From positions 1,367,001 to 1,431,000 of the forward strand of contig NZ_JAIWOU010000001.1 of NCBI RefSeq assembly GCF_021295395.1: a stretch of 64,000 bases of DNA, read 5' to 3'. The stretch's first letter is position 1. Every line of letters starts with the position of its first letter. Source of the DNA: Komagataeibacter sp. FNDCR2 (GTDB lineage Bacteria; Pseudomonadota; Alphaproteobacteria; Acetobacterales; Acetobacteraceae). Below the pieces are notes generated by a model. That model was not told the origin of the DNA. It worked only from the letters and a program-made list of their open reading frames with translations, and did not search any database. Of this stretch, positions 1 to 48,574 are shown in pieces. Both the position numbers and the translations under genes were made by a program.

Positions 1-73
1 TGTCGGGTCGGCCCCTGTCAGGCGGCTTATACTCAATATGAGCATAAACCTCTGGCGGGAATGGGAAGGAAGA

Positions 74-1060: not shown

Positions 1061-2625
1061 CCACCAGCCCCCCCCCGCTAGAACAGCTTGCCGGTCAACC
1101 GCTTGTTGTCGGTGCGGGGCTGGCGGGGGTCATGACGGCGCTGTCCACGACGCGCCGCTGCGTCCTGTTCTGTACGGGGCGACTGGAAGATGTGACACCC
1201 CCACCCGGCGCGAGCGTACTGGCGCAAGGGGGCATGGCCGCCGCCGTAGGCCCTGATGATTCGCCTGCACTACATGCGGCGGACACGCTCGAAGCCGGGG
1301 CCGGACTGTGCGACCGACAGGTTGTTGAGCGCATTACCCGCGAGGGGCCATCCATCATCGCCCGCCTGACGGATCTGGGTGTGGAATGGGACCGGCAGGC
1401 TGACGGAAGCCTGCAACCGGGGCTGGAAGCCGCGCATTCACGCCGCCGCATCGTCCATGCGGGGGAAGACGCCACCGGGGCCATGATCATGCGCGCGCTG
1501 GTCGCCCGCGTGCGCCAGACCCCGCGCATCACCGTGGTCGAACATGCCTGCGCGCGTGATGTCGTGGTCCAGGATGGCGCGGTGGCGGGCCTGCGGCTGA
1601 CCATTTCAGGGCAGCTACTGACCCTGCCCAGCACGGCGGTTGTGCTGGCGACGGGCGGGGTGGGCAGCCTGTTCGCCGATACGACCAATCCCGTAGGTGC
1701 GACCGGCAGCGGTCTGGCCATTGCCGCCCGCGCGGGGGCCGTTCTGGGCAATATGGAATTCGTGCAGTTCCACCCCACCGCCCTGTCCGCCGGGAAAGAG
1801 GGGCAGCGCCTGTGCCTGATCAGCGAGGCCGTGCGTGGCGAAGGCGCCATTCTGGTGGATGAGACCGGTGCCCGTTTTACCCATGAACTGGCCACGCGCG
1901 ACACCGTATCACGTGCCGTATGGCGGCATATGATGCAGGGGCACAAAATATACCTTGATGCCCGCACGGCGATCGGCGCTGATTTTCCCCGGCATTTCCC
2001 GGCCATCTCGGCACTGTGCCAGGCGCATGGGGTCAACCCGGTCACGCAGCCCATACCCATCCGGCCCGCCGCCCATTACCACATGGGCGGCGTGGTGGTG
2101 GACATACAGGGGCGCACCAATGTTACGGGCCTGTGGGCGGCGGGGGAAGTCGCCTGTACCGGCCTGCATGGGGCAAACCGGCTGGCCAGCAATTCCCTGC
2201 TTGAAGCAGCGGCGTTCGGTTCATGGATAGGGCAGGCGCTTGATGGCTGCGCAATGCCCGCCCCCCCATCCGTCATGCCGGCTTCGGGGGGGGAAACCGT
2301 GCAGTCTTCCCCATCACAGCCCTACCGCCGGATCATGAGCCGTCATGCGGGCGTCATCCGCACGGGCGCCAGCCTGCAGGAAGGGTTACGGCAGATGCTG
2401 CCTGATATACAGACCGATGCCGGGCTGGTCTGCGCTGCCATCCTGTACGCAGCACTACAACGCCATGAAAGCCGGGGCGCGCACTTCCGCAGCGATTTCC
2501 CCACAGCCCCTGCGGCTGGTACATCATCCGGCTTCACCCTGCCGGAACTGCTCGGGGGGATCGCCAGCACGATGGAAACCGGCAGGACGCCCAGCCTTCC
2601 AGAACATGAGAGAACACCCACATGA
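1057..2625 (+). CDS. nadB: L-aspartate oxidase NadB
   Basis: NadB oxidises L-aspartate to iminoaspartate for NadA, using FAD and passing electrons to oxygen or fumarate. The N-terminal dinucleotide-binding motif VVGAGLAGVMTAL is near residues 17-29. Other family blocks follow: ATGGVGSLFADTTNP near 206, EFVQFHPTAL near 236, HYHMGGVVVD near 343 and GLHGANRLASNSLLEA near 370. Length (522 residues) is normal for the succinate dehydrogenase/fumarate reductase flavoprotein family. The start ATG overlaps the nadA stop (ATGA) and the stop overlaps the nadC start in the same way. The C-terminal helical domain is somewhat short but intact. Confidence 0.96.
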   Translation: MTTSPPPLEQLAGQPLVVGAGLAGVMTALSTTRRCVLFCTGRLEDVTPPPGASVLAQGGMAAAVGPDDSPALHAADTLEAGAGLCDRQVVERITREGPSIIARLTDLGVEWDRQADGSLQPGLEAAHSRRRIVHAGEDATGAMIMRALVARVRQTPRITVVEHACARDVVVQDGAVAGLRLTISGQLLTLPSTAVVLATGGVGSLFADTTNPVGATGSGLAIAARAGAVLGNMEFVQFHPTALSAGKEGQRLCLISEAVRGEGAILVDETGARFTHELATRDTVSRAVWRHMMQGHKIYLDARTAIGADFPRHFPAISALCQAHGVNPVTQPIPIRPAAHYHMGGVVVDIQGRTNVTGLWAAGEVACTGLHGANRLASNSLLEAAAFGSWIGQALDGCAMPAPPSVMPASGGETVQSSPSQPYRRIMSRHAGVIRTGASLQEGLRQMLPDIQTDAGLVCAAILYAALQRHESRGAHFRSDFPTAPAAGTSSGFTLPELLGGIASTMETGRTPSLPEHERTPT

Positions 2626-3476
2626 TTCATCCCCTGCCCGACATCATGCTTGAACCGCTTGTGCGCGCCGGGCTTCTGGAAGATCTGGGCCGTGCGGGCG
2701 ATCTGACCACCGATGCCGTCATAGCGGATGCCGATGCGCCTGTACGGGCGGCTTTTATTGCCCGGCAGGACGGCGTTATCGCGGGCCTGGCCATGGCCCG
2801 GCTCTCCTTTGCGCTTATGGATCCGCGCATCGTGTTCGAACCCCATGTTACCGATGGGCAGGCCGTCAGCGCCGGAACCTGCCTTGCCACGGTGAAGGGG
2901 CCTGCCCGTGGCATCCTGTCCGGGGAGCGGGTCGGGCTGAATTTCCTCTCGCATCTCAGCGGTATCGCCACCGCCACCGCGCAACTGGTTGATCTGGTGC
3001 GTCCGTACCGCGCCAATATCACCTGCACGCGCAAGACCATGCCCGGCCTGCGCGCGATCCAGAAATACGCGGTGCGAGCGGGCGGTGGGAACAATCATCG
3101 CTTTGGGCTGGATGATGCCATTTTGATAAAAGACAACCATCTGGCTTTTGCTGGCGGCATCCGGCCCGCGGTTGAACGCGCCCGCGCCACAGCGGGTCAT
3201 CTGGTCCGCATCGAGCTTGAAGTCGATACGCTGGAACAGTTGGCCGAAGGGCTGGACGTGGGTGGGGTCGATGTCTTCCTGCTCGATAACATGCCACCTG
3301 ACATGCTGCGCGAGGCCGTGCGGCTGGTGGATGGTCGGGCCGTAACCGAGGCATCGGGCGGTATCACACCGGAAACCGTCCTGGCCGTGGCGCGGACCGG
3401 CGTTGACCTGATTTCACTCGGCTGGCTTACGCATACCGTGCGGGTTCTGGATATCGGGCTGGATTATCAGTCCTGA
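2622..3476 (+). CDS. nadC: Nicotinate-nucleotide pyrophosphorylase (carboxylating) NadC
   Basis: NadC converts quinolinate and PRPP to nicotinate mononucleotide and CO2, closing the de novo NAD branch made by nadA and nadB. The 284-residue protein has the quinolinate phosphoribosyltransferase core: TRKTMPGLRAIQKYAV near residues 133-148, AGGGNNHRFGL near 150 and ILIKDNHLAFAGG near 167, followed by ELEVDTLEQL and EASGGI blocks. It overlaps nadB by four bases. A bidirectional terminator lies about 65 bases after the stop. A paralogue of the same fold, modD, lies only about 550 bases away on the other strand; nadC is assigned here because of the operon and the stronger match to the quinolinate-binding blocks. 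Confidence 0.95.
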   Translation: MIHPLPDIMLEPLVRAGLLEDLGRAGDLTTDAVIADADAPVRAAFIARQDGVIAGLAMARLSFALMDPRIVFEPHVTDGQAVSAGTCLATVKGPARGILSGERVGLNFLSHLSGIATATAQLVDLVRPYRANITCTRKTMPGLRAIQKYAVRAGGGNNHRFGLDDAILIKDNHLAFAGGIRPAVERARATAGHLVRIELEVDTLEQLAEGLDVGGVDVFLLDNMPPDMLREAVRLVDGRAVTEASGGITPETVLAVARTGVDLISLGWLTHTVRVLDIGLDYQS

Positions 3477-4020: not shown

Positions 4021-4908
4021 TTATGCCGGTCTGATTTCAACCTGCACATCACGTGGTTTCGCCGCATAGGGCGCGGAAGTCACGATAATATCGGCCCCAG
4101 CCTTTACATACTCGCCTACATTCCGGGCATTGATACCGCCTGCGGCCACAATGCGCGGGGACAGACCGGCGGTGGCCAGACTGGCGCGAAGCTGCGACAG
4201 TTCTTCCGGTGTGAATTTTTCCAGTTGCAGGGCCTCGGCCCCCGCACGGGCCGCCGCCATGGCGGTGTCCGGATTACAGACTTCAATCACGATCCGCCGT
4301 TCCGGCGCATTGGCCCGCAACCGGGAAATCGCCTGATCCAGCCCGCTACAGGGATCCATGAAGGCCAGATGTTCCGCGAAGACAAGAATGGTGTCGGACA
4401 GCCCGGTCCGGTGCATGATCCCGCCACCGGCCTGAACCGCACGTACCGCTACGGCCCGTGTCAGCGGCGGCGCCTTGCGCGAACAGGCAATGGCCACACC
4501 GGGTGCGGGCGCATTGCCCGCCGCCCGCGCGGCCAGGACGATGTCATTCGTTTCCGTCGCGATGCCCGCCGCCCATTCCAGCAGTGTCTGGGTAACTTTC
4601 CACCCAAGATGCAGCGCGCCAGCGGGGCCGGACGCCCGGAGCAGAAGCTGCCCGGGCGCCACACGCGTACCGCTTCTTGTCACAATTTCGGCATCCGCCC
4701 CCAGGCGCGTCAGGAGTGCGGCCACATCTTCCGTGCAGCACACAACCTGCTCATGCCTGGCGGCAAATGTCATGACCCCGGGATTCTTTCCAATACCCAG
4801 CGCCCGCGTTGTCAGATCACCAAAAGGCACATCTTCCGCAAGCAGCGTATCAAGCAGGGTATTGGTCAGCGGGGCCAGACACTCATCCGAACTTGAACAG
4901 GACGCCAT
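4021..4908 (-). CDS. modD: ModD, NadC-like pyrophosphorylase of molybdenum loci
   Basis: A 295-residue member of the quinolinate phosphoribosyltransferase fold, called ModD when found in molybdate transport loci; its reaction is not established. The core block ([30 protein letters not shown], near residues 140-180) parallels NadC but lacks the exact TRKTMPG and KDNHL residues, which supports ModD over a second NadC. The chosen ATG lies inside the end of fixX (26-base overlap) with GAGGCGG just before it; a longer in-frame reading would run deeper into fixX. It is the last gene of the fixABCX operon and so is probably expressed under nitrogen-fixing conditions. The link to molybdenum rests on the neighbouring mop gene. 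Confidence 0.85.
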
Positions 4909-5176
4909 AACCGCCTCGCGGATAGTTCCATTCAATGTCGCCCGACTTGGAGCAGACGACACGGCAGGTTCCGCATTCCATGCAGCCATCCGCCGTGATC
5001 TCGACCTGACCCTGTTCGTTCTGGCTGTAGCAGCCCGCCGGACAGACCCGCGTCATGGCCACCAGCTCGCGCGAAGGAACCTCGTGCGGGCGCACCTCGA
5101 TATGCGGACGCCCCACATCCACGACATATCTGTTCTGGAACAGACGGTTTTCTACCCGATCGTCGCTCATCGCCAT
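4883..5176 (-). CDS. fixX: Ferredoxin-like protein FixX
   Basis: FixX is the ferredoxin-like partner of the FixABC electron-bifurcating complex that delivers low-potential electrons to nitrogenase. The 97-residue protein has the family's cysteine pattern: VCPAGCY near residue 45, then [12 protein letters not shown] near 64-75, and the closing block [10 protein letters not shown]. The start overlaps the end of fixC by ten bases; a second ATG two codons downstream (5170) overlaps the fixC stop as ATGA and may be the real start. The tail overlaps modD. Spacing in the fixABCX set is tight throughout, consistent with one transcript. Confidence 0.96.
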
Positions 5177-8497: not shown

Positions 8498-8512
8498 GCA
8501 AAATACGTGCCA
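8498..8512 (-). promoter_or_regulatory. Sigma-54 promoter of fixABCX-modD
   Basis: On the minus strand it reads TGGCACG-TATT-TTGC, an exact match to the -24/-12 consensus with correct spacing. The implied start of transcription is near 8486, about 36 bases before the fixA ATG. A TGT-N10-ACA site lies about 100 bases upstream. Confidence 0.9.
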
Positions 8513-8594: not shown

Positions 8595-8921
8595 TTAGTC
8601 CTCGCTTTGTGTCAACTCCGACAGGCTGACAAAACCGCCTGATGGCCGGATGGCGTCACGATGCACCTTGAACACCCGTTCCGTAATGGGTGTCGAGCGG
8701 GTGAAATCGTCATAGGCGCGCTCAAGCTGGGCGCGGCACAGCGCACGGCGGGCCTCATCGTCCTCACCCTGCTCGAGGTCATTGGCATTCAGGTAGGTGC
8801 CCATGCGGCGCAGAATATGCAGCCGCGCGACATTGAGCACCTGCGGGTCGTACGGCACGTCCAGTACGCGAAAAAAATCTTCAGCCGCTGAAAGCTGGCG
8901 CAGTTCGTCCAGTATTCCCAT
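8595..8921 (-). CDS. nifW: Nitrogenase-stabilising protein NifW
   Basis: NifW (108 residues) associates with the MoFe protein and helps protect it, probably during assembly or under oxygen stress. It is recognised by its N-terminus (MGILDELRQLSAAEDFF), the block LHILRRMGTYL near residue 34 and AYDDFTRSTPITERVFKVH near 70. AGGGGAAC precedes the ATG. It closes the iscA-nifU-S-V-W run. Its 3' end contains the NifA-type site used by the following fixA promoter, so coding and control overlap. Confidence 0.93.
   Translation of the reverse strand: MGILDELRQLSAAEDFFRVLDVPYDPQVLNVARLHILRRMGTYLNANDLEQGEDDEARRALCRAQLERAYDDFTRSTPITERVFKVHRDAIRPSGGFVSLSELTQSED
8608..8623. promoter_or_regulatory. NifA upstream activator site for fixA, inside nifW
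   Basis: TGT-N10-ACA (TGT at 8608-8610, ACA at 8621-8623) lies about 100 bases upstream of the fixA -24 box, the usual distance for NifA binding. It is within the last codons of nifW. Confidence 0.65.
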
Positions 8922-21982: not shown

Positions 21983-21997
21983 GCAAACAGCGTGCCA
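21983..21997 (-). promoter_or_regulatory. Sigma-54 promoter of the nifHDKENX operon
   Basis: The minus strand reads TGGCACG-CTGT-TTGC, a full -24/-12 match. The expected transcript start near 21971 gives a 5' leader of about 55 bases before the nifH ATG. A NifA site lies 60-75 bases further upstream. Confidence 0.95.
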
Positions 21998-22053: not shown

Positions 22054-22088
22054 TGTTTTGTCGTGCTTCATACAAAGGCGACAAAACA
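22054..22088. promoter_or_regulatory. NifA site embedded in a 10-bp inverted repeat upstream of nifH
   Basis: TGT-N10-ACA (22059-22074) is a canonical NifA upstream activator sequence, about 100 bases before the predicted start of transcription. It is partly contained in a perfect inverted repeat, TGTTTTGTCG (22054-22063) and CGACAAAACA (22079-22088) with a 15-base spacer. The larger repeat could hold two activator dimers or a second regulator. Confidence 0.75.
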
Positions 22089-24569: not shown

Positions 24570-26051
24570 TCAGGCTGTCTGCCGGATTTCCGTGCCGAAA
24601 GCGTTGGAATACCAGCCGGTGATTCCGGCCTCGATCCAGTCATGGGCATAGTCATGACTGACCTCGATCCCGGCCTCCTTCAGGCTGTCGCGCGGACAGT
24701 CGCCAACCTTGGCGCACAGCACGACGCGAACGCCCTCCAGGGCCTCGATCGTGCTGTCGAGCGTCGCGTCCTCACCCCACCCGCCTTCGCAATAGTTGTC
24801 TACCTTGCGATGGCCGGTGAATGTGATTCCGGATGCCGAGACTTCGTAGATCTGGAATTCGCGGGCATGACCGAAATGCTGGTTGATCCGTCCGCCCCCC
24901 TTGGTCGCGACCGCGACAAGGACCGGCGTTTCCGCATCAATCCCGGCCAGCATCGCCCCGGCCGCCTCGCGCTGCTTCATGTGCTCGCCGCGCTCCTGCG
25001 CCACGACCTCACGATAGGTTTCCCGGCGCGACGGATCGTAGGAGACCTCATCCGCCAACTGGTCCATCGTGAATTCCTGGCCACGATCCTCACCTAGCAG
25101 GCCGACCGCATCCGCCCGGCACTGGCGGCAGTGGCGCATGAGCTTGGTCCCGTCGGACAGGCGATCCTGCAACGCCTTGAGTTCCTGCGCCTTGGGTCCA
25201 CGCTGCCCGGTCAGGCCATAATGCGTGCCATGCGCGGGGTCGGAAATGAGCGGCATGATGTTGTGCAGGAAAGCGCCCTTGGCCTTGACGACCCTGTTCA
25301 CTTCAATCAGGTGCTCATCATTGACACCGGGGATCATGACGGAATTGATCTTGGTCAGGATCCCGCGCGCGGTCAGCATCTCCAGCCCGAGCATCTGGCG
25401 CTCGTGCAGGATCCTGGAGGCGTCCAGCCCCGTCCAGCGCTTGTTTTTGTAGAAAATCCACGGATAGATCTTCGTGCCGATTTCCGGATCAACCATGTTG
25501 ATCGTGATCGTTACGTGATCGATGTTCATTTCCGCGATTTCATCGACATGCTCGGGCAGGGCCAGACCATTTGTCGACAGGCACAGTTTGATGTCCGGAA
25601 TATCCTGCGACACCTGTGCGAAGGTTTCCTGCGTTTTTTTCCAGTCGTAACAGGCATCGCCTGGGCCGGCGATACCCAGGACGGAAAGCTGCGGCACCTC
25701 GTTGGCGACCGTAATGACCTTGCGCCGCGCCTGCGTGGGCGTCAGCTTTTCCGAGACGACGCCGGGGCGGCTTTCATTCGCGCAGTCATATTTGCGATTA
25801 CAATAATTGCACTGGATGTTACACGCGGGCGCCACGGCCACGTGCATCCGGGCAAAATAATGATGCGCCTCTTCCGAATAGCAGGGATGATCCTTGACCT
25901 TTTCCCATATTTCCGGGGGAAGGTCGGACGGACCATCGGAACTTCCGCAACTGGATGAGGAACACCCGCTCTCACCGCTCAGGGCCGAACGCATATCCTG
26001 CGCATCCTGCGGTGCAAGCATATCCAGACTGATGAGCTGTGCCATTGCCAT
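24570..26051 (-). CDS. nifB: FeMo-co biosynthesis radical SAM protein NifB
   Basis: NifB fuses two [4Fe-4S] clusters with a SAM-derived carbide to make NifB-co, the core of FeMo-co. The radical SAM motif Cx3Cx2C is CNIQCNYC near residue 75, followed by NRKYDC, and [12 protein letters not shown] lies near 122. The C-terminal part (about 375-480) is a fused NifX-like cofactor-carrier domain, with [20 protein letters not shown] visible. Length is 493. The first ATG (26051) is only about two bases from CGGAG; the second ATG at 26045 has better spacing and may be the real start. It heads the nifB-fdxN-LRV-nifZ-nifT-SIR2 operon from a sigma-54 promoter. Confidence 0.97.
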
Positions 26052-26084: not shown

Positions 26085-26099
26085 GCAAGAAACATGCCA
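26085..26099 (-). promoter_or_regulatory. Sigma-54 promoter of the nifB operon
   Basis: The minus strand reads TGGCATG-TTTC-TTGC, a -24/-12 element with one deviation (T for C after TGGCA). The predicted start near 26073 lies 22-28 bases before the nifB ATG, and a NifA site lies about 60-75 bases upstream. Confidence 0.87.
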
Positions 26100-26159: not shown

Positions 26160-26175
26160 TGTGCCAACCACGACA
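26160..26175. promoter_or_regulatory. NifA upstream activator site for nifB
   Basis: A canonical TGT-N10-ACA (TGT 26160-26162, ACA 26173-26175) sits 20 bases after the nifA stop and about 95 bases before the predicted nifB transcript start, the correct range for NifA action. Confidence 0.75.
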
Positions 26176-26195: not shown

Positions 26196-27959
26196 TCAGA
26201 ATTTTTTGATGGAAATCCCGTTCTTGCGCAGGGCGTAGCCGATCTGGCGCGGGGTCAGGCCCAGTATGCGCGCGGCCTTGGCCTGCACCCATCCCGCCGT
26301 TTCCATCGCCTCGATCAGTTCTTCGCGCTGTGCGCTCCATTCCCCCTGCGCGGCCGAACAGACCGAGGAAGACGGGCACGTCGCCGCCGGGTCGGGCGTT
26401 GGGGACACGGGAGGAGCGGCAACGACATCGTCAACCGGCAGGGACGGCACGGCGGGGGCTGGGGCCGGAACGTCGTCCCCGTCCATGGTATCGGGGCTGT
26501 CATGGGTCAGTTGCGGCCCGGCCGGCGGGGAGGCAGGCGTGGGATTGCGCCAGAAAATGGAGGAAAGGCACCCATCGCTCCGGCAGGCGAAATCCTGTGC
26601 GGTGATGACGTCTCCCTGCGCCAGGGTGGCCGTTCTGCGAATGCAATTTTCCAGTTCACGCACATTCCCGGGGAAATAGCAGGCAGTCAGCACGTCCAGC
26701 CCGGTGGAATCAATGGACAGGTCCATATGATTGCTCTCGTTGAAGCGACGCAGGAATTCTTCAGCCAGCAACGGAATGTCGGAAATGCGCTCACGCAGCG
26801 CGGGAAGGAAAATGGGGATCACGCTCAGGCGATAGTACAGGTCGGCACGGAAACGCCCCTTGCTGACCGCCTCTTCCAGGTTGCGGTTTGTCGCGGTCAC
26901 GATCCGGACATTGACCTTGAGCGTACGGGTTCCCCCCACGCGCTCGAATTCACCATCCTGAAGCACGCGAAGCAGCTTGGCCTGGAAACTTGGCGAAATT
27001 TCGCCAATTTCATCCATGAACAGCGTGCCGCCATCAGCCAGTTCAAAACGCCCCTTGCGCTGGTTGAGCGCGCCGGTGAAAGCCCCCTTTTCATGCCCGA
27101 AAAGTTCCGATTCCAGAACGCTTTCCGGCAGGGCGGCGCAGTTCAGCTTGACGAACGGCTTGTTCTGCCGGGGCGAGGCCATATGAATGGCGCGGGCAAA
27201 GAGTTCCTTGCCCGTGCCCGATTCACCCCGCAGCAGGACGGTCACGTTACTCCGGGCCACGATCTCGATTTTCTTGAGCACGGCGCGCAGGGCCGGACTA
27301 TTGCCGACAATGCCGAAATCGTTCCCGGTTTCTTCCCCTTCCGTCAGGATTTTGCGTTCATGCGCGACATCCTTCATCAGCCGTTCGCGATCACGCTGCA
27401 CCAGGCGATGGAGCCGGAGCATCTGCCCCATGAGCCCCCCGACCATGGAAAGCAGGCTGACATCAATGCTGCCGACGACCGAATCCTCGGCAATGGCGGG
27501 CCGGTCCAGAATCAGGACACCGATGACCTGCTCACGGCTGATGATGGGCACGCCGATAACCCCGATGCGGCCGGGGCCGACCTCCCATGCCGGGGCCTTG
27601 GCGAAACCGTATTTGAGATCCAGCGCAACGTCGGGCACCAGCAGGGGCTGCTGGCTGGTGACGATCTGCCCGATCGCCTGTTCCGGCATGCTGTCAATAT
27701 AGGTTTTCGCGGCCGTGGGGTCCGCATAGGTGCTGATGACCGTATCGTTATGTTCCGCGTCATCGAACAGGACGACGGCGGCGTTGTTCATATCAACGAA
27801 ATTTTCAAGAACGGTCAGGACACTTTTGATGATTCCAGACGTTTCCGTCGGCGCGCATAAAATTTTTGAAATTTCATGCAATCCGAATAAAGCGCGCTCT
27901 GCCCATGTTGACTGGCCTGCCATGCTGACGGGCCGACAGGGAATGTGATCTGCAGGCAT
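26196..27959 (-). CDS. nifA: Nif-specific sigma-54 activator NifA
   Basis: NifA is the enhancer-binding activator of sigma-54 nif promoters. An N-terminal GAF domain (about 30-175) is followed by the AAA+ domain with Walker [11 protein letters not shown] (near 242), the sigma-54 contact [15 protein letters not shown] (near 282-296) and Walker [11 protein letters not shown]-terminal helix-turn-helix ends the protein ([20 protein letters not shown]). Between them is the cysteine pattern Cx11Cx19Cx4C (near 424-461), the mark of NifA proteins directly sensitive to oxygen, followed by a long Pro/Ala-rich linker. The ATG at 27959 has GGGAGG upstream; 23 more residues could be read but look non-coding. 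No -24/-12 element or clear FNR box is seen upstream. Confidence 0.97.
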
Positions 27960-28203
27960 GTCTATTGCCTCCCCCCACTTCTCCAACTGCACCCAGATAT
28001 GCCCTTTCGGAATGCATAGACATGACACTCCGGCACAAGAGTTACAACCTTCATTTTAAAAATATGAAACATATTATCATAGAATTCGATATCAAATTTC
28101 TCAGATTTTCTGTTTGCATTATTTTTCTGATGCTTACGGTCTCATCGTATATATTCGTTCTGGAATAGATATATGTTCCGTTTTATATAGACGCCCGTCG
28201 CTT

Positions 28204-28782
28204 TCACTCGGCATAACGTTCTTCGGGCATCCTTTCCGCCTGGCTGCGCACATGCAGATGCGCCCAGTCAAGCAGGCTTGCACTCCGGGGCGGCAGAACC
28301 GGCGCGGCATGGTCCTGACCGATAAACGCCTCCCACGCGGGCAGGTGGTTACGACTTACGACCACGACAATGGGAATGCCGCGGCAGATCGCCTCCGCTA
28401 TTTCCGTGCGCAGGCCGCCGCCTTCCGCCTCACGCACGCCGAACCGGTTGACGAACAGCACATCGGGGTTCTGCTCGATCCGCGCGCGCAACGTAACGGC
28501 CAGCGCGCCCATCGCGTCCATATCCAGGGTGCAGGCGCGCGCGCCCGCGCCGCGATAGCGATCCAGCCGGATCAGGGAGCCATCGGTCAGGTCGTGCACA
28601 TACATCTCATGGCGGCCATCGCTGCGCAGCCGGCCGCGCTTTTGCACGAACCCGCCCACTTCCAGCCCACGCGTCCGCAGGATGGTAATGGCATGCCACA
28701 GAGCCATTTCGACTTCCTGCGGATCACTGTCCTGCATGATGACCGCAATCGGATAGGCGTATGAACCTGCATGGTCTGGCAT
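28204..28782 (-). CDS. DUF2478 protein, molybdenum-locus associated
   Basis: A 192-residue protein of the DUF2478 family, which often accompanies molybdate transport genes. It has an N-terminal block YPIAVIMQDSD (near 9), the family's DGSLIRLDRYRGAGARACTLD (part near 67) and VLFVNRFGVREAEGGGLR (near 107), then GIPIVVVVSRNHLPAW. The pattern resembles a nucleotide-binding fold with a conserved Asp/Asn-Arg core, but no standard P-loop is evident. It starts under its own sigma-54 promoter, divergent from modABC-rpoN, and lies upstream of nifA. A role in molybdenum handling during nitrogen fixation is an inference from place and control. Confidence 0.8.
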   Translation of the reverse strand: MPDHAGSYAYPIAVIMQDSDPQEVEMALWHAITILRTRGLEVGGFVQKRGRLRSDGRHEMYVHDLTDGSLIRLDRYRGAGARACTLDMDAMGALAVTLRARIEQNPDVLFVNRFGVREAEGGGLRTEIAEAICRGIPIVVVVSRNHLPAWEAFIGQDHAAPVLPPRSASLLDWAHLHVRSQAERMPEERYAE

Positions 28783-28821
28783 CCGTGTGCTCCCCTATCT
28801 TGATTGATAGCCTGGCTGCAC

Positions 28822-28836
28822 GCAATTTTCGTGCCG
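28822..28836 (-). promoter_or_regulatory. Sigma-54 promoter of the DUF2478 gene
   Basis: The minus strand reads CGGCACG-AAAA-TTGC, one base off the -24/-12 consensus at the first position. The implied start near 28810 gives a 28-base leader before the ATG. No exact TGT-N10-ACA site was found in the 100 bases upstream. Confidence 0.75.
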
Positions 28837-28921
28837 CGATCTGCACCGGATTATGACAGAACTTTTTCAGTACCGAATATCACGCTGTATTTATATGTCG
28901 TTTCTATATCGTTCCGTTATA

Positions 28922-28936
28922 TGGCATGGTTCTTGC
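28922..28936 (+). promoter_or_regulatory. Sigma-54 promoter of modABC-rpoN
   Basis: TGGCATG-GTTC-TTGC on the plus strand is a good -24/-12 element, with the same TGGCATG variant as the nifB promoter. The implied start near 28948 leaves about 90 bases before modA. It diverges from the DUF2478 promoter, 85 bases apart, over an AT-rich stretch. No clear NifA site was found between them. Confidence 0.78.
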
Positions 28937-29039
28937 TGGTATCCTGTCATCCCGGTTGTTTTCCGGGGCCTGTCGGGCATCCAGCGGACCTGAACCGCCA
29001 CATCCCGCAGGATTCATGGCCCGGACCAAAGGTACTGCA

Positions 29040-29816
29040 ATGCGCATACTCCGCTTGATCCTCCTTGTTCCCGCCGTCGTCATCCTGCTGTTTACCGCGC
29101 GACAGGGCGTGGCGGCCCCGCTCCGTCTGGCCGTCGCCGCGAATTTCACACAGACCGCGCAACAACTCGTGGCGGAATTTACACAAAATACTGGCATATC
29201 CGCGACAATCAGTTCCGGGTCGAGCGGACAGCTTTTCATGCAGATCACGCAGGGCGCGCCGTTCGACATCTTCCTCAGTGCGGATACGAAACGTCCGGCC
29301 GACCTGATCACCAGCGGGATGGGTGTCGCCGCATCCCGCTTTACCTATGCCATCGGTCAACTGGTCCTGTGGACGCCTACCACCCACACGCCCCCCAGTG
29401 AACAGGAACTGCGTCAGGCCACGTTCGCGCATCTGGCCATATGCAACCCCAATACCGCGCCCTACGGCACCGCCGCCATCGAGACGCTGGACAGGCTGGG
29501 GCTCTATGCCCAACTGAAGCCCAGGCTGGTCGTGGCGCAATCGGTCAGTCAGGCGCTGGAACTGGCGCAGAGCGGCAATGCCGAACTCGCCTTTGTCGCC
29601 CTGGCTCAGGTCCGTCCGCTGCAAGGGGGCGCGTACTGGCTTGTCCCTCCGGCCCTGTACACACAGATCCGTCAGGACGCGATCCTGCTCTCCACGGCGA
29701 AGGATGATGAACAGGCGCGGAAGTTCATGGTCTTCCTGCACGGCGCAAAGGCCGCAAGCCTGATCGGGGAGGCCGGTTATCTTACGGATGCGTCGACCAG
29801 AGAACCCACGCCATGA
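29040..29816 (+). CDS. modA: Molybdate ABC transporter substrate-binding protein ModA
   Basis: ModA is the periplasmic molybdate receptor. A signal peptide (MRILRLILLVPAVVILLF, cleaved near AAP at residue 26) precedes the binding domain, which starts LRLAVAANFTQTAQQL and contains SSGSSGQLFMQI and GAPFDIFLSADTKRP near 60-85. Length is 258. Start at 29040 is chosen for the AAAGG upstream; an ATG at 29016 is possible, and earlier starts would lie upstream of the predicted transcript start. It overlaps modB by four bases. The family includes tungstate and chromate receptors, but the context supports molybdate. Confidence 0.94.
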   Translation: MRILRLILLVPAVVILLFTARQGVAAPLRLAVAANFTQTAQQLVAEFTQNTGISATISSGSSGQLFMQITQGAPFDIFLSADTKRPADLITSGMGVAASRFTYAIGQLVLWTPTTHTPPSEQELRQATFAHLAICNPNTAPYGTAAIETLDRLGLYAQLKPRLVVAQSVSQALELAQSGNAELAFVALAQVRPLQGGAYWLVPPALYTQIRQDAILLSTAKDDEQARKFMVFLHGAKAASLIGEAGYLTDASTREPTP

Positions 29817-30499
29817 AGGTCCTGTCCCCCGACGTGACGGAAGCGGTGGTCCTGACGTTGGAACTGGCGGCCGTTACGACAACATTGCTGATTGCGATCG
29901 CGCTACCCATTTCATGGTGGCTGGCATGGCCCCGGCGGTGGTGGAAATCCGTTATCGGCGCGGTCATCTCATTACCCCTTGTCCTGCCGCCAAGTGTATT
30001 GGGGTTTTATTTTCTGGTCGCTTTCGGGCCGTCGGGGCCGGGGGGATGGGTCGCGCGGCTGTGGGGCGGCCGCACGCTTGCCTTCAGCTTTCCCGGCCTG
30101 GTGATCGGGTCACTGCTTTATGCCCTGCCCTTTGCCGTGCAGCCCATCCAGAATGCATTCCAGGCCATGGGGCGCCAGCCGCTTGAAGTCGCGGCGACCC
30201 TTGGCGCGTCACCGTGGCGGACCTTCCACAGTGTTGTCATTCCGCTGGCATGGCCCGGTATCGCAACAGCCATCGTACTGGGATTTGCCCATACCGTGGG
30301 TGAATTCGGGATCGTGCTGATGATTGGCGGGGACATCCCGGGCCATACGCGCGTCCTGTCGGTCGCCCTGTATGACTATGTGGAAAATGCCCGCTGGCAT
30401 GACGCCAACATCATCGCAGCCGGTATGGTCGCCTTCTCATTCCTGACGATCATGCTCCTGTCCTCGCTCCAGCTTCGTACACGGGGGCGTGATTCATGA
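29813..30499 (+). CDS. modB: Molybdate ABC transporter permease ModB
   Basis: ModB is the inner-membrane permease. The 228-residue protein has about five to six membrane segments and the conserved EAA loop contacting the ATPase (EVAATLGASPWRTFHSVVIP near residue 122, ending in PLAWPGI). Overlaps of four bases with modA and modC show tight coupling. Confidence 0.95.
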   Translation: MKVLSPDVTEAVVLTLELAAVTTTLLIAIALPISWWLAWPRRWWKSVIGAVISLPLVLPPSVLGFYFLVAFGPSGPGGWVARLWGGRTLAFSFPGLVIGSLLYALPFAVQPIQNAFQAMGRQPLEVAATLGASPWRTFHSVVIPLAWPGIATAIVLGFAHTVGEFGIVLMIGGDIPGHTRVLSVALYDYVENARWHDANIIAAGMVAFSFLTIMLLSSLQLRTRGRDS

Positions 30500-31221
30500 A
30501 GAGCGCGCAGGGTCTCCACGCCGCCTTTCAGGGCAGCATCGGCCATTTCCGTTACGATGTGGAATTTACCGCGCCCGCCCATGGCGTAACGGCCCTGTTC
30601 GGTCCCTCCGGCTGCGGAAAAAGTACGATCCTGCGTTGCGTTGCCGGGCTGGAACGGGCGCAGGGGGGATATTGTCACTTCAATGGCCAGATATGGCAGG
30701 ACGGCCATCACTTCGTACCGACATGGAAACGGCCCATCGGTTTCGTGTTTCAGGACCCTTCCCTGTTCACGCATATGTCGGTCAGGCAGAACCTGCTCTT
30801 TGGCGTCCGTGGTGGCACGCATGCGCAGCAACAGGCCGATTTTTCCAAAACCGTTGCGATGCTGGATCTTGAACCTCTGCTTGGCCGCGGCGTGACCCAT
30901 CTGTCCGGTGGGGAAAAACAGCGTGTGGCCATTGGTCGCGCCCTGCTGCGCCGCCCCGCGCTCCTGCTGATGGACGAACCGCTATCCGCCCTTGATCACG
31001 CCCGGAAGCAGGACATCCTGCCCTATCTCCACACGCTGTGCCAGAACGTCGGCCTCCCCGTTCTGTACATCTCCCACGACCCCGATGAAATCGCGTGCCT
31101 GACCGACCGCGTCATAACGCTGGACGCAGGCCACGTTACCGACAGGCCCACATGGGAAAACCGGGAGGCGTTCACTTACCGGCCACGCACCCCCTGTCCC
31201 GATGTTATGATGGGAATATAA
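30496..31221 (+). CDS. modC: Molybdate ABC transporter ATPase ModC, short form
   Basis: ModC powers molybdate uptake. Walker A is FGPSGCGKST near residue 35, the signature HLSGGEKQRVAIGRALL near 135 and Walker B LLLMDEPLSALD near 155. At 241 residues the protein ends after the ATPase domain and lacks the C-terminal TOBE (Mop) region of E. coli-type ModC (about 350 residues), which normally binds molybdate. A separate Mop protein is encoded in the same window at 3582-3785. Only four bases separate modC from rpoN. Confidence 0.92.
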   Translation: MKSAQGLHAAFQGSIGHFRYDVEFTAPAHGVTALFGPSGCGKSTILRCVAGLERAQGGYCHFNGQIWQDGHHFVPTWKRPIGFVFQDPSLFTHMSVRQNLLFGVRGGTHAQQQADFSKTVAMLDLEPLLGRGVTHLSGGEKQRVAIGRALLRRPALLLMDEPLSALDHARKQDILPYLHTLCQNVGLPVLYISHDPDEIACLTDRVITLDAGHVTDRPTWENREAFTYRPRTPCPDVMMGI

Positions 31222-31225
31222 AACC

Positions 31226-32614
31226 ATGGCTACAGGTCATCGCCAGGAATTAGGCCAGCACCAGGGTCTGTTCATAAGCGTCCGCATGCGTCAGTCGCTT
31301 CAGATCCTGCAGTTCTCCAATGCGGAGCTTCAGGAATTTCTCACCAGCGAGATCGAGAAAAATCCCATTCTTGAACAGCCGCATGAGACGGAAGACGCGG
31401 CCCCGCCACCCGGGCGGAAAGAGACCGTCTCCTATTCCTCCATCCGTGAACCGGGCGCCACCGCCCAGCGCTGGACACCCGATAGCGGCCTGGATGACGA
31501 TGGCATGGCCCGCATTGCCGACAACGCCCCCCCCTTGCGTGAGCGTATATTCGAGCAACTGGTGCTGTCGGGCTGCACCCTTGCCGAGCGTGAAATCGGC
31601 GCGCACCTGATCAGCGGGCTTGACGCCGTCGGTCGCCTTTCGATGCCGCCCGAAGAAATTGCCACCATGCTCGGCATTCCCGTCGCGCAGGTCGAAGCGG
31701 TGCGGCAACGGATGATGCGCCTGGACCCCCCGGGGCTGTTCGCGCAATCCCTGCAGGAATGCCTGATGGTCCAGTTGGAGGAACGGAACCGGATGGACCC
31801 GGCAATGGCGAAATTGCTGGAAAATCTGGACCTTCTGGGGCGTCATGACCTTAAACGGCTCTGTCAGGTCTGCAATGTGGACCTTGAAGACATGCAAGAC
31901 ATGGTTGCGGACCTGCGCGCGCTGAACCCGAAACCGGGAGCGGAGGCATTATCGGGCAATCCGGGCATCGCCATACCCGACATATTGATGGAGCATACGC
32001 CTGAGTCCGGCTGGATACTGGAACTGAACCCTGACACGACACCACGCGTCGTTATCAATAGTGCCCTCAGCACCCGTATTTCCTTGCGTGCCCATACGAC
32101 GGAACGCGCCTTTCTGGCGGAACACCTGACCAGCGCGAACTGGTTGATCCGGTCCCTGCAGCAGAGAAGCATAACGATCCTGCGCGTGGCGACGGAAATC
32201 ATGCGACGGCAGGAAAATTTCCTGACCCAGGGGCCGGCAGGTCTTGTCCCGTTGACATTACGCATGGTCGCGGAAAGTCTGGACATGCATGAAAGCACAG
32301 TCAGTCGTGTAACGGCGAACAAATACATTTCCACTATTCGCGGTATATTGCCGCTGAAGTTCTTCTTTGTCGCGGCCCTGTCCGGGCAGAATGGGGAAAT
32401 GCATAGCAGCATCGCCATCCAGAACCAGATCAGGCAGATGATTCAGGGCGAACAGCCGACCGCCCCGCTATCGGATGACGCCATTGCCGCCCAACTGCGC
32501 GCCAAGGGGATAGAGGTTGCACGCCGCACCGTCGCGAAATATCGTGAAGGCATGGGATTTCCCAATTCGGTCCAGCGCAGACAGCGCGCCAGCAGTTCCA
32601 TATCCCTTGCCTGA
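31226..32614 (+). CDS. rpoN: RNA polymerase sigma-54 factor RpoN
   Basis: RpoN directs polymerase to -24/-12 promoters and needs activators such as NifA. The Gln-rich region I (LGQHQGLFISVRMRQSL and following, residues 9-40) begins the protein. A core-binding central part follows, then a helix-turn-helix around MHESTVSRVTANKYI near 353, and the RpoN box ARRTVAKYR near 432. At 462 residues it is on the short side, mainly from a reduced acidic region II. It begins four bases after modC and shares the sigma-54 modABC promoter, so it may be self-amplifying and is probably the nif-dedicated copy; another rpoN elsewhere cannot be excluded. Repeat copy A ends the unit. Confidence 0.96.
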   Translation: MATGHRQELGQHQGLFISVRMRQSLQILQFSNAELQEFLTSEIEKNPILEQPHETEDAAPPPGRKETVSYSSIREPGATAQRWTPDSGLDDDGMARIADNAPPLRERIFEQLVLSGCTLAEREIGAHLISGLDAVGRLSMPPEEIATMLGIPVAQVEAVRQRMMRLDPPGLFAQSLQECLMVQLEERNRMDPAMAKLLENLDLLGRHDLKRLCQVCNVDLEDMQDMVADLRALNPKPGAEALSGNPGIAIPDILMEHTPESGWILELNPDTTPRVVINSALSTRISLRAHTTERAFLAEHLTSANWLIRSLQQRSITILRVATEIMRRQENFLTQGPAGLVPLTLRMVAESLDMHESTVSRVTANKYISTIRGILPLKFFFVAALSGQNGEMHSSIAIQNQIRQMIQGEQPTAPLSDDAIAAQLRAKGIEVARRTVAKYREGMGFPNSVQRRQRASSSISLA

Positions 32615-32656
32615 GCGAGGGAAACCCTCATAAAGAACTCTTTATATAAAACAATA

Positions 32657-32734
32657 AAAGTTTTTGGGTGCCGCCTTTTTTCAAAAAGGCGGCGTTTTCT
32701 GAAGCTTTTTGAAAAAAGCTTCACCAAAAACTTT
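32657..32734 (+). repeat. Twin-hairpin intergenic repeat, copy A
   Basis: Two adjacent hairpins, CCGCCTTTTTTCAAAAAGGCGG and GAAGCTTTTTGAAAAAAGCTTC in pattern, flanked by outer arms AAGTTTTTGGG and CCAAAAACTTT. It lies right after rpoN and can end transcription in both directions. Copies B, C and D in this window share the layout; C is nearly the same sequence in reverse. Confidence 0.85.
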
Positions 32735-32795
32735 ATTTTATTTTTCGCAATTTTACTTCACCAGTACTTTTTCACACCCCTCCCGACAGAACAAT

Positions 32796-32868: not shown

Positions 32869-33124
32869 CCTAACTCTACTTTATGATATTTATATTGATG
32901 GAGATGCGGGGAGTATGAAATCGTCCTCGCGGTGACACATTATGCCGGGCGTTGCCCGAGCGTCCATGAGCAGGACCGATGACATGCCGATATGCGCCTT
33001 GAACTGCTCAGGGTGGAAAACCCGGATTACCGCCTTCGGCCATTTCAGAAACGCGGAACCCCTAAAGTAAATTACCTTGTTTGATGGCACTACGTGCCTT
33101 TTTATGAAAGAACAGGATTTATTC

Positions 33125-33880
33125 ATGTCTCTTGCTACACCCGTGGCCCCGGTCCAGACAGAACAGTCCCTGCGCGAGGAACTGGCCGCCGCCTATCGTC
33201 TGATCGCCCATTTCGGCATGACGGATCTTGTGTACACACATCTGTCCGTCCGCCTGCCGGGGGGGCGGCATGAATATCTGGTCAATCCTTACGGTTTTCT
33301 GTTTGAAGAAATTACCGCCAGTTCCCTGGTCATTGTCGATGCCGATGGCCGCCCACGCCAGAAGACCTCCCACCCCATCAACCCGGCCGGATTTGTCATT
33401 CATTCCGCCATCCATGGCAACCGACCGGATGCGGCATGCGTCATGCATACCCATACGGTTCCCGGCATGGTCGTAGCCGCGCAGGACCGGAAGATTCTGC
33501 CCCTCAACCAGATCAATATCGAATTCTACGGCAATGTCAGCTTCCATGCCTATGAAGGAATTGCCGCGGATGACAATCTGAGTGAGCGTGAACGCCTGGT
33601 TCGTGATCTGGGCACCAATAATGCATTGATCCTGCAAAACCACGGTCTGCTGACCGTCGGCAGCACCGTGGCGCAGGCATTCTACCGCATGTATTATCTG
33701 GAACAGGCCTGCCGTATCCAGATTGCGGCACAGGCAACAGGCGTTCCGCTGCATATTCCATCGGAAGAAAAAATCATGCGGGCAAAAGCCCAGTTTGATG
33801 GGGACCCCGATGAGGGCCGCCTGATCTGGCAGGCGCTTCGGCGCAAGCTGGACCGCGAACAGCCTGATTATAAAAACTGA
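33125..33880 (+). CDS. Class II aldolase/adducin family protein
   Basis: A 251-residue zinc-dependent class II aldolase/adducin-type protein. Metal ligands are the two His of CVMHTHTVPG (near residue 108) and a later His in LILQNHGLLTVG (near 171); an Asn/Asp-rich N-terminal block AAYRLIAHFGMTDLVYTHLSV fits the family. The ATG has CAGGA upstream. The substrate cannot be read from sequence; members act on sugar phosphates or on carboxyl substrates, and the family close to this one is often of unknown use. It stands alone between repeats A and B. Confidence 0.85.
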   Translation: MSLATPVAPVQTEQSLREELAAAYRLIAHFGMTDLVYTHLSVRLPGGRHEYLVNPYGFLFEEITASSLVIVDADGRPRQKTSHPINPAGFVIHSAIHGNRPDAACVMHTHTVPGMVVAAQDRKILPLNQINIEFYGNVSFHAYEGIAADDNLSERERLVRDLGTNNALILQNHGLLTVGSTVAQAFYRMYYLEQACRIQIAAQATGVPLHIPSEEKIMRAKAQFDGDPDEGRLIWQALRRKLDREQPDYKN

Positions 33881-34007: not shown

Positions 34008-34757
34008 TACCTCAATTGATTTGCGGACCATTCCTCAGGCTGGCTTTCCAAACCGCTTCCTGATGAAATTGATAGGATTTTTTCTCCTCCAGGTCCTGAT
34101 TCCGCGACATGGCATGTACCAAAACCATCCATATGCCCGCGTTTTCGGGTCAGCCTGATACTTGATGGCACTTTATTTGCGTCAGGACATATGGAGCGTT
34201 GGAAATGGTTCTGTAAATGTCCTTAATCCATGCTCCAGCAGGTGAAGCATAAGCAGGGAGCGTATCGAACGGCCCATGTCAGACAGAAGCCGCTGACTGA
34301 CTGCCGCACGACGCAAGGGACGAGGAGTATATACGACATCCGTAAATACCATGCCGAACATATCCGTTTGCATGGCCAGACCCGTTTTTGTCATGATTCC
34401 GACACGAGTATCGCGATGACCGTCAATACGGTCCATCAGGAAAACGGCATCCCCGACCGGCATTTTCCCTTCATTCCCTTGCCAAACAGGCACTTCAATC
34501 CGGAACACAAACGTTTTTTATGAATTTATTAATTATTCTGGAAAAGCATGGTAAGTTTGCTATCATTGCAGGGCTGCATGAATGGAGTGTGCACTTATCC
34601 CCCTCGCTTCAGTGACAATGGTCAAATGAATTTCCAAAAATCACTTTATTACAATGGATACCGGCCGTCAGATCAATAACATCCCTCGTAACGCAGGGGC
34701 GGCATGGATCACGATCATACCATCAAGAGTTTCAAACATACGTCTCCGGAGTATCCG
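34008..34757. other. Gene-poor region before the chemoreceptor
   Basis: About 750 bases without a convincing gene. Weak open frames of about 100 codons exist on both strands at 34182-34523, mutually antisense, with a GTG start and no ribosome site on the minus strand. It could be a decayed gene; no family is recognised. The last 200 bases are AT-rich and may contain the chemoreceptor promoter. Confidence 0.4.
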
Positions 34758-36374
34758 ATGCCGAATCCGCTGCGTAAAATAGCCGAAGCAGACAGAGTGA
34801 AGGCCGAAATCCTGGCCGTCAGTGAACGTCTGGAATTCATGCAGATGACACCGCAGAACTGCGCGGCGCTCCGTTCGCTCAAGGCGCTGGTTCAACGCGA
34901 ATTACCCGTGGCACTCGATAAATTCTATGATCAGGTCCGCCAGAACCCCGAGACCAGGAAGTTTTTCTCATCAGAAAAAGATATTACTCATGCAAAGGAG
35001 GCCCAGGGCGTCCATTGGAGCAATATCTCGAACGGTAATTTCAATCAGGATTATGCCGCCAGAGTGCGCAAGATCGGCATGGTGCATGCACGGATCGGCC
35101 TTGAGCCCAGATGGTATATCGGTGGCTACGCCATCATCCTCGATCATCTTATCAAGGCGGCGATTGAAGCAAACTTTCCTAAACGGCGGCTGTTTTCCGA
35201 AGCGCGGATGAGTGCGGCCGAATTCGGTGAAGCTCTGGGCAGTCTGTCAAAGGCGGTCATGCTGGACATGGATCTTGCCATTTCCGTCTATATCGACGAG
35301 GCGGAAAGAGCGCGGCTGGCAGGACAGACAGACGCCACCACAAAGGAGCAGACACTCGTCTGCGAAAGCTTCGGCAAGGCCATGGCCAGCATCGCGGCCA
35401 AGGATCTGACCTGTGAACTGGCCGATGAACTGCCCGAAGCCTACCAGCCGCTACGGGCCGACTTCAACAACGCGGTCGGCACGCTGCGCCAGTCATTGCA
35501 GTCCGTGGCGCAGGTGACAGGGTCGATCGAAGGGGCGATCCGGGAAATCAGTTGTGCTGCCGACGACCTTTCGCGCCGCACGCTGCAACAGGCGGCTTCG
35601 GTTGAAAAATCCGCCGCGGCGCTGGACCAGATTACGGCCACCGTCCGCTCCACCGCGCAGCGCGCCGAGGATGTCGGCGCGCTGGTGGCCCGTTCCCGCG
35701 CCAGTATCGAACAGTCGGAAGCCATCGTTCACAAGACCATCGTCAGCATGGGGGCGATCGAACAGTCTTCCGGTTCGATCGGCAGCATTACCGATGTGAT
35801 GGACGAGGTGGCCTTCCAGACGAACATCCTGGCGCTGAACGCCGGTGTGGAAGCCGCCCGCGCCGGTGACGCGGGCCGGGGCTTCGCCGTCATCGCCGCC
35901 GAGGTCCGGGTCCTGGCGCAGCGCTCCGCCGATGCTGCCAAGGAAATCAAGGCGCTGATCGCGAAATCGCGGGGCGAGGTCCGCTCCGGCGTTACCCTGG
36001 TGGGGGAAACCAGCAATGCCCTCAAGACGATCATCAGCGATGTGGGGGAAATCAACGAGCATATATCCGTGATCGTGGAAGCCTCGCAGGAGCAGGCCGC
36101 CGCGTTGCAGGACGTCAATTCGGCGGTCAGCGCCATTGACCACAATACGCAGCAGAACGCCGCCATGGTCGAGCAGACTTCCGCAGCAGGCCGGAGCCTG
36201 GCCGATGAGGCCGAACAGTTGAACGCCCTACTGGCCTCTTTCCAGCTTGAGGACAGGGGGGATGGCATAACCGGCATGATCGGGGGAAGTACCGCCCTGC
36301 ATGGACGGGGAAGAGGGAGTAAACCAGCCTTACCTTCATCACGGTTTCGACTTGAATCGACCGTTGAAGGGTAA
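34758..36374 (+). CDS. Globin-coupled methyl-accepting chemotaxis protein (HemAT type)
   Basis: An oxygen-sensing chemoreceptor with no membrane segment. The N-terminal protoglobin domain (about 10-180) holds the proximal His region [13 protein letters not shown] near residue 82-94 and [20 protein letters not shown] near 122. The C-terminal MCP signalling domain (about 260-520) has the hairpin tip [20 protein letters not shown] near 354. Start at 34758 has CGGAG at good spacing (538 residues); an in-frame ATG at 34704 would add 18. A soluble heme sensor of this kind steers cells by oxygen, fitting a diazotroph that must seek low oxygen (inference). No other chemotaxis genes are nearby. Confidence 0.92.
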
Positions 36375-36492
36375 CGCTGCGGTCGCGGGGCATGATCGTT
36401 GCCGGGCCCGCCATAATTCACCCTCCCTGAAATGATGACCGGCAAGGGTCTGCCTGAAAGACTGCCCAAAAAATATTCCGCAAAACATAAGG

Positions 36493-36569
36493 AAGTTTTT
36501 GGTGAAGCTTTTTTCAAAAAGCTTCAGGGAACGCCGCCTTTTTGAAAAAAGGCAGCACCCAAAAACTTT
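36493..36569 (-). repeat. Twin-hairpin intergenic repeat, copy C
   Basis: The reverse complement of copy A with only a few changes. It lies between the convergent chemoreceptor and aminotransferase genes, where it can stop transcription from both sides. Confidence 0.85.
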
Positions 36570-36617
36570 TATTGTTTTCCATAAATGAGTATTTCAAAGA
36601 GTATGTAAAACCGCATG

Positions 36618-48461: not shown

Positions 48462-48543
48462 AAAAGTTTCCGGGCGCCGCCTTTTTTCCAAAAGGCGGCG
48501 TTTCCCGAAGTTTTTTTGGAAAAAATCTTCACCAAAAACTTCC
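48462..48543 (+). repeat. Twin-hairpin intergenic repeat, copy D
   Basis: The same layout as copy A, in the same orientation but more diverged (outer arms AAAAGTTTCCGGG and CCAAAAACTT). It lies between the convergent TonB receptor and oxidase genes and probably works as a terminator for both. Confidence 0.8.
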
Positions 48544-48574
48544 TTATGATTTATCGGGGGTCATAAGCGGTCCC

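Follow-up and report, generated by a model that had tools for sequence, protein, structure and literature searches.

A candidate sigma-54-dependent modABC-rpoN unit in the nif island of Komagataeibacter sp. FNDCR2

In the genome of Komagataeibacter sp. FNDCR2, the molybdate-uptake genes modA, modB and modC are followed closely by rpoN, which encodes the sigma factor sigma-54, within an island of nitrogen-fixation (nif) genes. The window analysed here is a stretch of 64,000 nucleotides (NCBI RefSeq assembly GCF_021295395.1, contig NZ_JAIWOU010000001.1, positions 1,367,001 to 1,431,000), and coordinates are those of the window. With a probability that we put at roughly 0.68, modABC-rpoN is one sigma-54-dependent unit of the nif island, the promoter of which is opened by the RpoN holoenzyme, most likely together with NifA, and which is thus under positive feedback. 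The basis of this reading, i.e., gene order, spacing, a conserved promoter element, a single rpoN, co-occurrence with NifA and an empty site in a related genome, was seen directly. In the proposed mechanism, the RpoN holoenzyme would open the -24/-12 promoter, most likely with NifA supplied by the adjoining divergent gene; molybdate import and sigma-54 would rise together under fixing conditions, and a weak basal source of RpoN would start the loop.

Organisation of the modABC-rpoN unit

28922-28936, + strand: -24/-12 (sigma-54) element 5' of modA, TGGCATGGTTCTTGC (TGGCATG-GTTC-TTGCT), an exact TGGCAYR-N4-TTGC match
29040-29816, + strand: modA, molybdate-binding protein (TIGR01256, 206 bits)
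29813-30499, + strand: modB, molybdate permease (TIGR02141, 222.4 bits)
30496-31221, + strand: modC, molybdate ATP-binding cassette (ABC) ATPase of 241 amino acids (TIGR02142, positions 1-213 of 353)
31226-32614, + strand: rpoN, sigma-54 (TIGR02395, 379.1 bits; PF00309, PF04963, PF04552)
32657-32734, + strand: strong branched hairpin directly 3' of rpoN (z-score -6.9 for 32615-32760)

ModA and ModB score above their curated cut-offs, ModC (a short protein without the C-terminal part of the model) reaches 284.4 bits on TIGR02142 against a cut-off of 285.05, and all three sigma-54 Pfam domains are present in RpoN. The modA start was set at 29040 from an AAAGG ribosome site, which is our own reading; a longer open reading frame (ORF) opens at 28926, inside the promoter. 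There is a 4-base overlap at each of the modA/modB and modB/modC junctions, and 4 bases separate the end of modC from the start of rpoN; the latter spacing had been stated in an initial annotation of this DNA. Its description of modABC-rpoN as one operon also agrees with the tight modC-rpoN junction found in all seven loci with this gene order. Thus, rpoN stands in a tight unit with nitrogen-fixation-related genes behind a sigma-54 element, flanked by a divergent DUF2478-nifA-nifB block and by the strong hairpin. From this layout, it is reasonable to assume that a single modABC-rpoN transcript is made, and the hairpin is a possible end of the unit.

The hairpin belongs to a copy of a dispersed repeat. 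Similar hairpin-forming stretches were observed at 32632-32744 (directly after rpoN), 36489-36602 and 48462-48545, with another in a second genome of the genus (G005, see below), and the palindrome GAAGCTTTTTGAAAAAAGCTTC is common to the first two.

The -24/-12 element and its conservation

The -24/-12 element that the initial annotation had placed at 28922-28936 is an exact consensus match and is kept in all seven loci with the same gene order, which is consistent with RpoN driving the modABC-rpoN unit. There are five exact TGGCAYRN4TTGC sites in the window against 0.12-0.30 expected, a number reached by none of 100 shuffles (0.30 expected there), and these sites precede fixA, an IscA-like gene followed by nifUSV, nifH, nifB and modA. 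When one mismatch is allowed, the count is ordinary (12 vs. 7.6 expected).

The comparison covered a sample of 397 genomes of the family, 19 of them from the genus of the window, including the window genome itself (G000, 3.29 Mb). An arrangement with modABC-rpoN divergent from nifA-nifB was found in seven genomes, namely G000, G001 (Komagataeibacter melaceti AV382) and G005 from the genus of the window and G254, G285, G164 and G371 from a second genus (g67). The modC-rpoN gap is 3-5 bases in five of these loci, and in G164 and G371 an rpoN ATG lies before the modC stop, i.e., the genes overlap. Key bases of the -24/-12 element are invariant in the five spacers that were aligned, within a spacer that has diverged overall (mean column identity 47%). 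NifA above the cut-off occurs in 20 of the 397 genomes, including the seven with modABC-rpoN; the other 13 gave no rpoN match in the stretch around nifA (approx. 8-9.5 kb in both directions for ten of them and shorter for G204, G154 and G350), and rpoN may lie farther away than that in these genomes.

One sigma-54 gene, apparently dedicated to nif

The second rpoN for which the initial annotation advised looking is not present in the window genome, which has one PF04552 match. Within the genus, rpoN was found in 3 of the 19 genomes, both by protein query and by PF04552, and the same three have NifA above the cut-off. Since no sigma-54 was found in the remaining 16, the nif island appears to bring its own. 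Scanning the genome contigs with the RpoN protein gave six loci, one of which is close (K. melaceti, 91%) and the others distant (32-34%). In the RpoN tree (54 rows, 53 of them different, a part of all RpoN matches), the seven mod-linked proteins are split from 46 other rows (45 different) with a Shimodaira-Hasegawa-like approximate likelihood ratio (SH-aLRT) support of 100. L013, L026, L027, L028, L057 and L062 had been left out of this tree for long branches or extensions, and L031 stayed in despite that filter. G254, G285 and G371 carry another rpoN too, beside an ABC gene.

A second, very divergent rpoN was also observed in G001 (L065, G001:C49), with an activator gene with an intact GAFTGA motif approx. 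3.6 kb away. Its product alone joins the mod-linked side of the tree, on a very long branch that makes its placement unsure.

In the 3.22 Mb outside the window, exact -24/-12 sites number 15, compared with 10-17 expected (Markov order 1-3, own-genome sequence). Because the window holds far more strong sites than chance predicts, and the rest of the genome about as many as chance predicts, sigma-54 of this genome looks dedicated mostly or only to nif. A sigma-54 regulon outside the window was considered and rejected: the 15 sites approximate the Markov expectation, 12 lie within an ORF of at least 90 amino acids, and the three that are not ORF-covered precede ORFs without a Pfam match at 0.001.

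NifA, NtrC and the neighbouring promoters

8498-8512: -24/-12 element of fixA
8608-8623: NifA-type site upstream of the fixA -24/-12 element
21983-21997: -24/-12 element of nifH
22059-22074: NifA-type site upstream of the nifH -24/-12 element
24570-26051, - strand: nifB (TIGR01290)
26085-26099: -24/-12 element of nifB
26160-26175: NifA-type site TGT-N10-ACA upstream of the nifB -24/-12 element, perfect in 7/7 loci and used as the yardstick
26196-28028, - strand: nifA, GAFTGA intact (TIGR01817, 669 bits)
28204-28782, - strand: DUF2478 gene, divergent from modA (PF10649), undetected at the same place in G005
28822-28836, - strand: divergent -24/-12 element, CGGCACGAAAATTGC, towards DUF2478 and nifA, with one mismatch

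The genome has six PF00158 matches, the two weakest of which were covered by the GAFTGA motif count only, and GAFTGA occurs in just one of the six, NifA. In NtrC the motif reads GAFSGA, and the loops of NtrX and an RtcR-like protein also differ from GAFTGA. By elimination, NifA is thus the likely activator of the modABC-rpoN promoter. The divergent element, which matches YGGCAYRN4TTGC in all seven loci, faces nifA directly in G005, and NifA could therefore promote its own synthesis through it. An alternative start for nifA is offered by four sigma-70-like sites on the minus strand between DUF2478 and nifA.

The GAFTGA threonine of NtrC is changed in all three nif-plus genomes of the genus (to serine, AGC, in G000 and G001, and to alanine, GCC, in G005) and is kept in all 16 nif-minus genomes, none of which had a detectable rpoN (loci compared: L088:1312-2763 in G000, L089, L090, L092 and L116-L130). 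Among 22 chosen genomes outside the genus, an NtrC match was found in 19, and 18 of these keep GAFTGA; G331, which has rpoN, has a degenerate loop. In an NtrC tree made with the threonine codon masked, G000 and G001 are sisters (100/100) and G005 groups with the nif-minus genomes G010, G011 and G012 (100/99). The two threonine changes match the two nif-plus lineages on this tree, a pattern that was noticed afterwards and, with two pairs, is below significance, at least six independent pairs being needed for a sign test.

A NifA-like activator of 555 amino acids, below the NifA cut-off and with GAFPGA, was observed in G002, G007 and G016 (L150, L151 and L152, respectively), in which no rpoN was found.

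Opposing evidence and alternative explanations

Several observations weigh against a NifA- and RpoN-driven feedback unit. In none of the seven genomes does the region 30-250 bases 5' of the mod promoter contain a perfect (6/6) TGT-N10-ACA site, the best match being 4/6 in four genomes (including G000 and G001) and 5/6 in three, whereas the nifB promoters have a perfect site 66-87 bases upstream in all seven, and the nifH and fixA promoters of the window have perfect sites as well. NtrC, FNR/FixK, ModE and IHF each have a consensus pattern that can be scored, and near modA none of these scores exceeds the 95% background. Some activity with sigma-54 might be retained by NtrC despite its GAFSGA loop. 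The 15 sites outside the window exceed both the 6 expected at order 0 and the 3 found with the backward pattern over the whole genome, and by these two yardsticks some sigma-54 targets outside nif are possible. Finally, a self-dependent rpoN needs a basal promoter, and a sigma-70-like scan did not find one.

Per 220 bp, a perfect TGT-N10-ACA is expected by chance 0.03 times and a 5/6 match, which is common, 0.55 times. The promoter of the IscA-like gene and nifUSV in the window also has no perfect site, so absence alone does not exclude NifA; the divergent promoter likewise has none upstream in 7/7 loci. No site with zero or one mismatch is present within 28601-29088. A perfect match at 29089-29104 was rejected as a candidate: it falls within modA, on the downstream side of the promoter, and has no perfect counterpart at the same position in the six other loci, and since the window holds 9 perfect matches against 7.9 expected, it was treated as a chance occurrence. 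G254 and G285 have a 5/6 match at a distance of 110 bases upstream, which may be what was scored in PMC4999443, but 5/6 matches are common by chance.

The same absence of perfect sites upstream of both promoters would suit a promoter opened by NtrC or another regulator in place of NifA, possibly from the 64-235 bp between the divergent promoters, where the three genomes of the genus share a conserved block. A weak NtrC-like site is indeed present in G000 and G001, but at 9/12 it equals the 95% background, and NtrC-like scores are not above background in general. Moreover, the NtrC loop is altered in G000, G001 and G005, NtrX and the RtcR-like protein of G000 do not have the motif, and in PspF the GAFTGA threonine is critical for sigma-54 contact, according to part of PMC2941729. 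We therefore regard this explanation as unlikely. A good deal closer to an even chance, although still short of it, is the view that an undetected weak constitutive promoter, located upstream of the mod genes or inside them, supplies most of the RpoN and that the -24/-12 element only boosts it, which overlaps with the feedback reading. A basal promoter is logically required to start the loop, and the R. capsulatus nifU2-rpoN precedent has a primary and a secondary promoter, as the portions of PMC6925177 on this operon describe. However, no sigma-70-like promoter reached the threshold of a simple consensus scan on the + strand of 28783-32614, which covered this promoter type only and which also speaks to the separate promoter between modC and rpoN that the initial annotation had named as refuting its reading. 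It is most improbable that the -24/-12 element serves molybdate import only, with rpoN transcribed or processed separately. The four other exact elements of the window precede nif, fix and IscA-like genes, and G293 and G374 have modABC near nif without rpoN behind modC; nevertheless, the 4-base gap leaves no room for a terminator, the junction is tight in 7/7 loci of two genera, and the strong hairpin follows rpoN.

Of the nif-dedicated feedback circuit envisaged in the initial annotation, the dedication of sigma-54 to nif is supported by the near-chance number of sites outside the window, whereas no link from molybdate level to sigma-factor supply was found, the ModE-like scores near modA lying within background. 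A ModE-like protein of 114 amino acids, below the family cut-off, is encoded elsewhere in the genome (L154:1447-1791).

A broader reading, which we offer tentatively and consider rather doubtful, is that the nif island gives a private sigma-54 to a genus otherwise without one, and that, wherever the island is found, the resident NtrC, its threonine having changed twice independently, has been cut off from sigma-54, leaving a closed NifA-RpoN channel. Two back-to-back sigma-54 promoters, neither with a standard NifA site, would then express NifA (via DUF2478) and RpoN (via modABC) in a double positive feedback.

Comparison with known systems

The presence of rpoN in the NifA regulon is a common theme that has arisen through several independent rearrangements, with nifU2, fixABCX, nifUSVW and prxS as partners (PMC6925177). 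The window unit is similar to the nifU2-rpoN superoperon of Rhodobacter capsulatus (Cullen et al. 1994, via PMC6925177, consulted in part) in that a single rpoN follows genes of the nif set or island, behind a promoter that in R. capsulatus is activated by NifA/RpoN. According to the same parts of PMC6925177, however, the partner there is nifU2, rpoN is known to have an adjacent constitutive promoter, and modABC belongs to a mopA-modABC operon under NtrC regulation. RpoD is the sigma factor used by R. capsulatus NtrC, RpoN being required by NifA and AnfA alone (PMC6925177); the genus of the window looks similar in this respect. The prxS-rpoN2 operon of Mesorhizobium loti likewise places an extra, NifA-dependent rpoN, essential for symbiotic fixation, on a symbiosis island; unlike the window genome, its hosts (M. 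loti and Rhizobium etli) also have rpoN1, the partner is prxS, and in M. loti a NifA upstream site precedes the operon (PMC3538637, in part).

In Gluconacetobacter diazotrophicus, modABC lies in the nif cluster and is predicted to be NifA-regulated (parts of PMC2765452 and PMC4999443). G285, apparently G. diazotrophicus PAl5, has modABC-rpoN beside nifA-nifB, as in the window, but also a further rpoN, and GAFTGA is intact in its NtrC. The word "rpoN" does not occur in the main text of PMC2765452, nor do "rpoN" and "modA" in that of PMC9368920, an iron-response transcriptome of G. diazotrophicus. The 11 places on rpoN, modABC and G. diazotrophicus in PMC4999443 name no modABC-rpoN operon, although its supplement may list rpoN there, and none is named in the retrieved titles and abstract beginnings on modABC/rpoN/nif, Komagataeibacter and G. 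diazotrophicus. Hence, the statement in the initial annotation that it knew of no standard modABC-rpoN example agrees with these searches for the modABC partner but not for the principle, as self-promoting nif-borne rpoN genes (nifU2-rpoN and prxS-rpoN2) have been published. Given these cases and the predicted NifA control of modABC, modABC-rpoN is a further arrangement of a known feedback. In the literature searched, as far as its titles and partial texts extend, we did not find the modABC partner, a genus whose sigma-54 arrives with the nif island, or the NtrC change.

The nif island

Only 210 bases separate the left flank (nadABC, window 1-3476) from the right flank (starting at 38890) in G017, a nif-minus genome, so that 35 kb including the cluster is missing there (an empty site). 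The stretch absent from G017 lies between nadC and the right flank:

3477-38889: modD, fix, nif, modABC-rpoN, a methyl-accepting chemotaxis protein (MCP) gene and more

The nif island appears to come and go within the genus. In G005, the nif cluster and nadABC are on different contigs. A pair of separate gains and a single gain combined with a move and several losses are both compatible with this history.

A nif island with its own sigma factor and metal importer could work in hosts without sigma-54, which bears on the movement of nif clusters between bacteria and on the parts needed in a transferable nif cassette. The NtrC change, in turn, is a naturally occurring case in which the insulation of a regulator from a newly acquired sigma factor can be tested.

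Further genes were noted in and around the island. The modD gene (4021-4989, - strand) follows the fix genes within the island. The class II aldolase gene that adjoins rpoN (33077-33880) has its counterpart in G017 beyond the right flank. A chemoreceptor gene with a protoglobin domain (34704-36374) lies inside the island, with a -24/-12-like sequence, TGGCACTTTATTTGC, at 34166-34180 (one mismatch).

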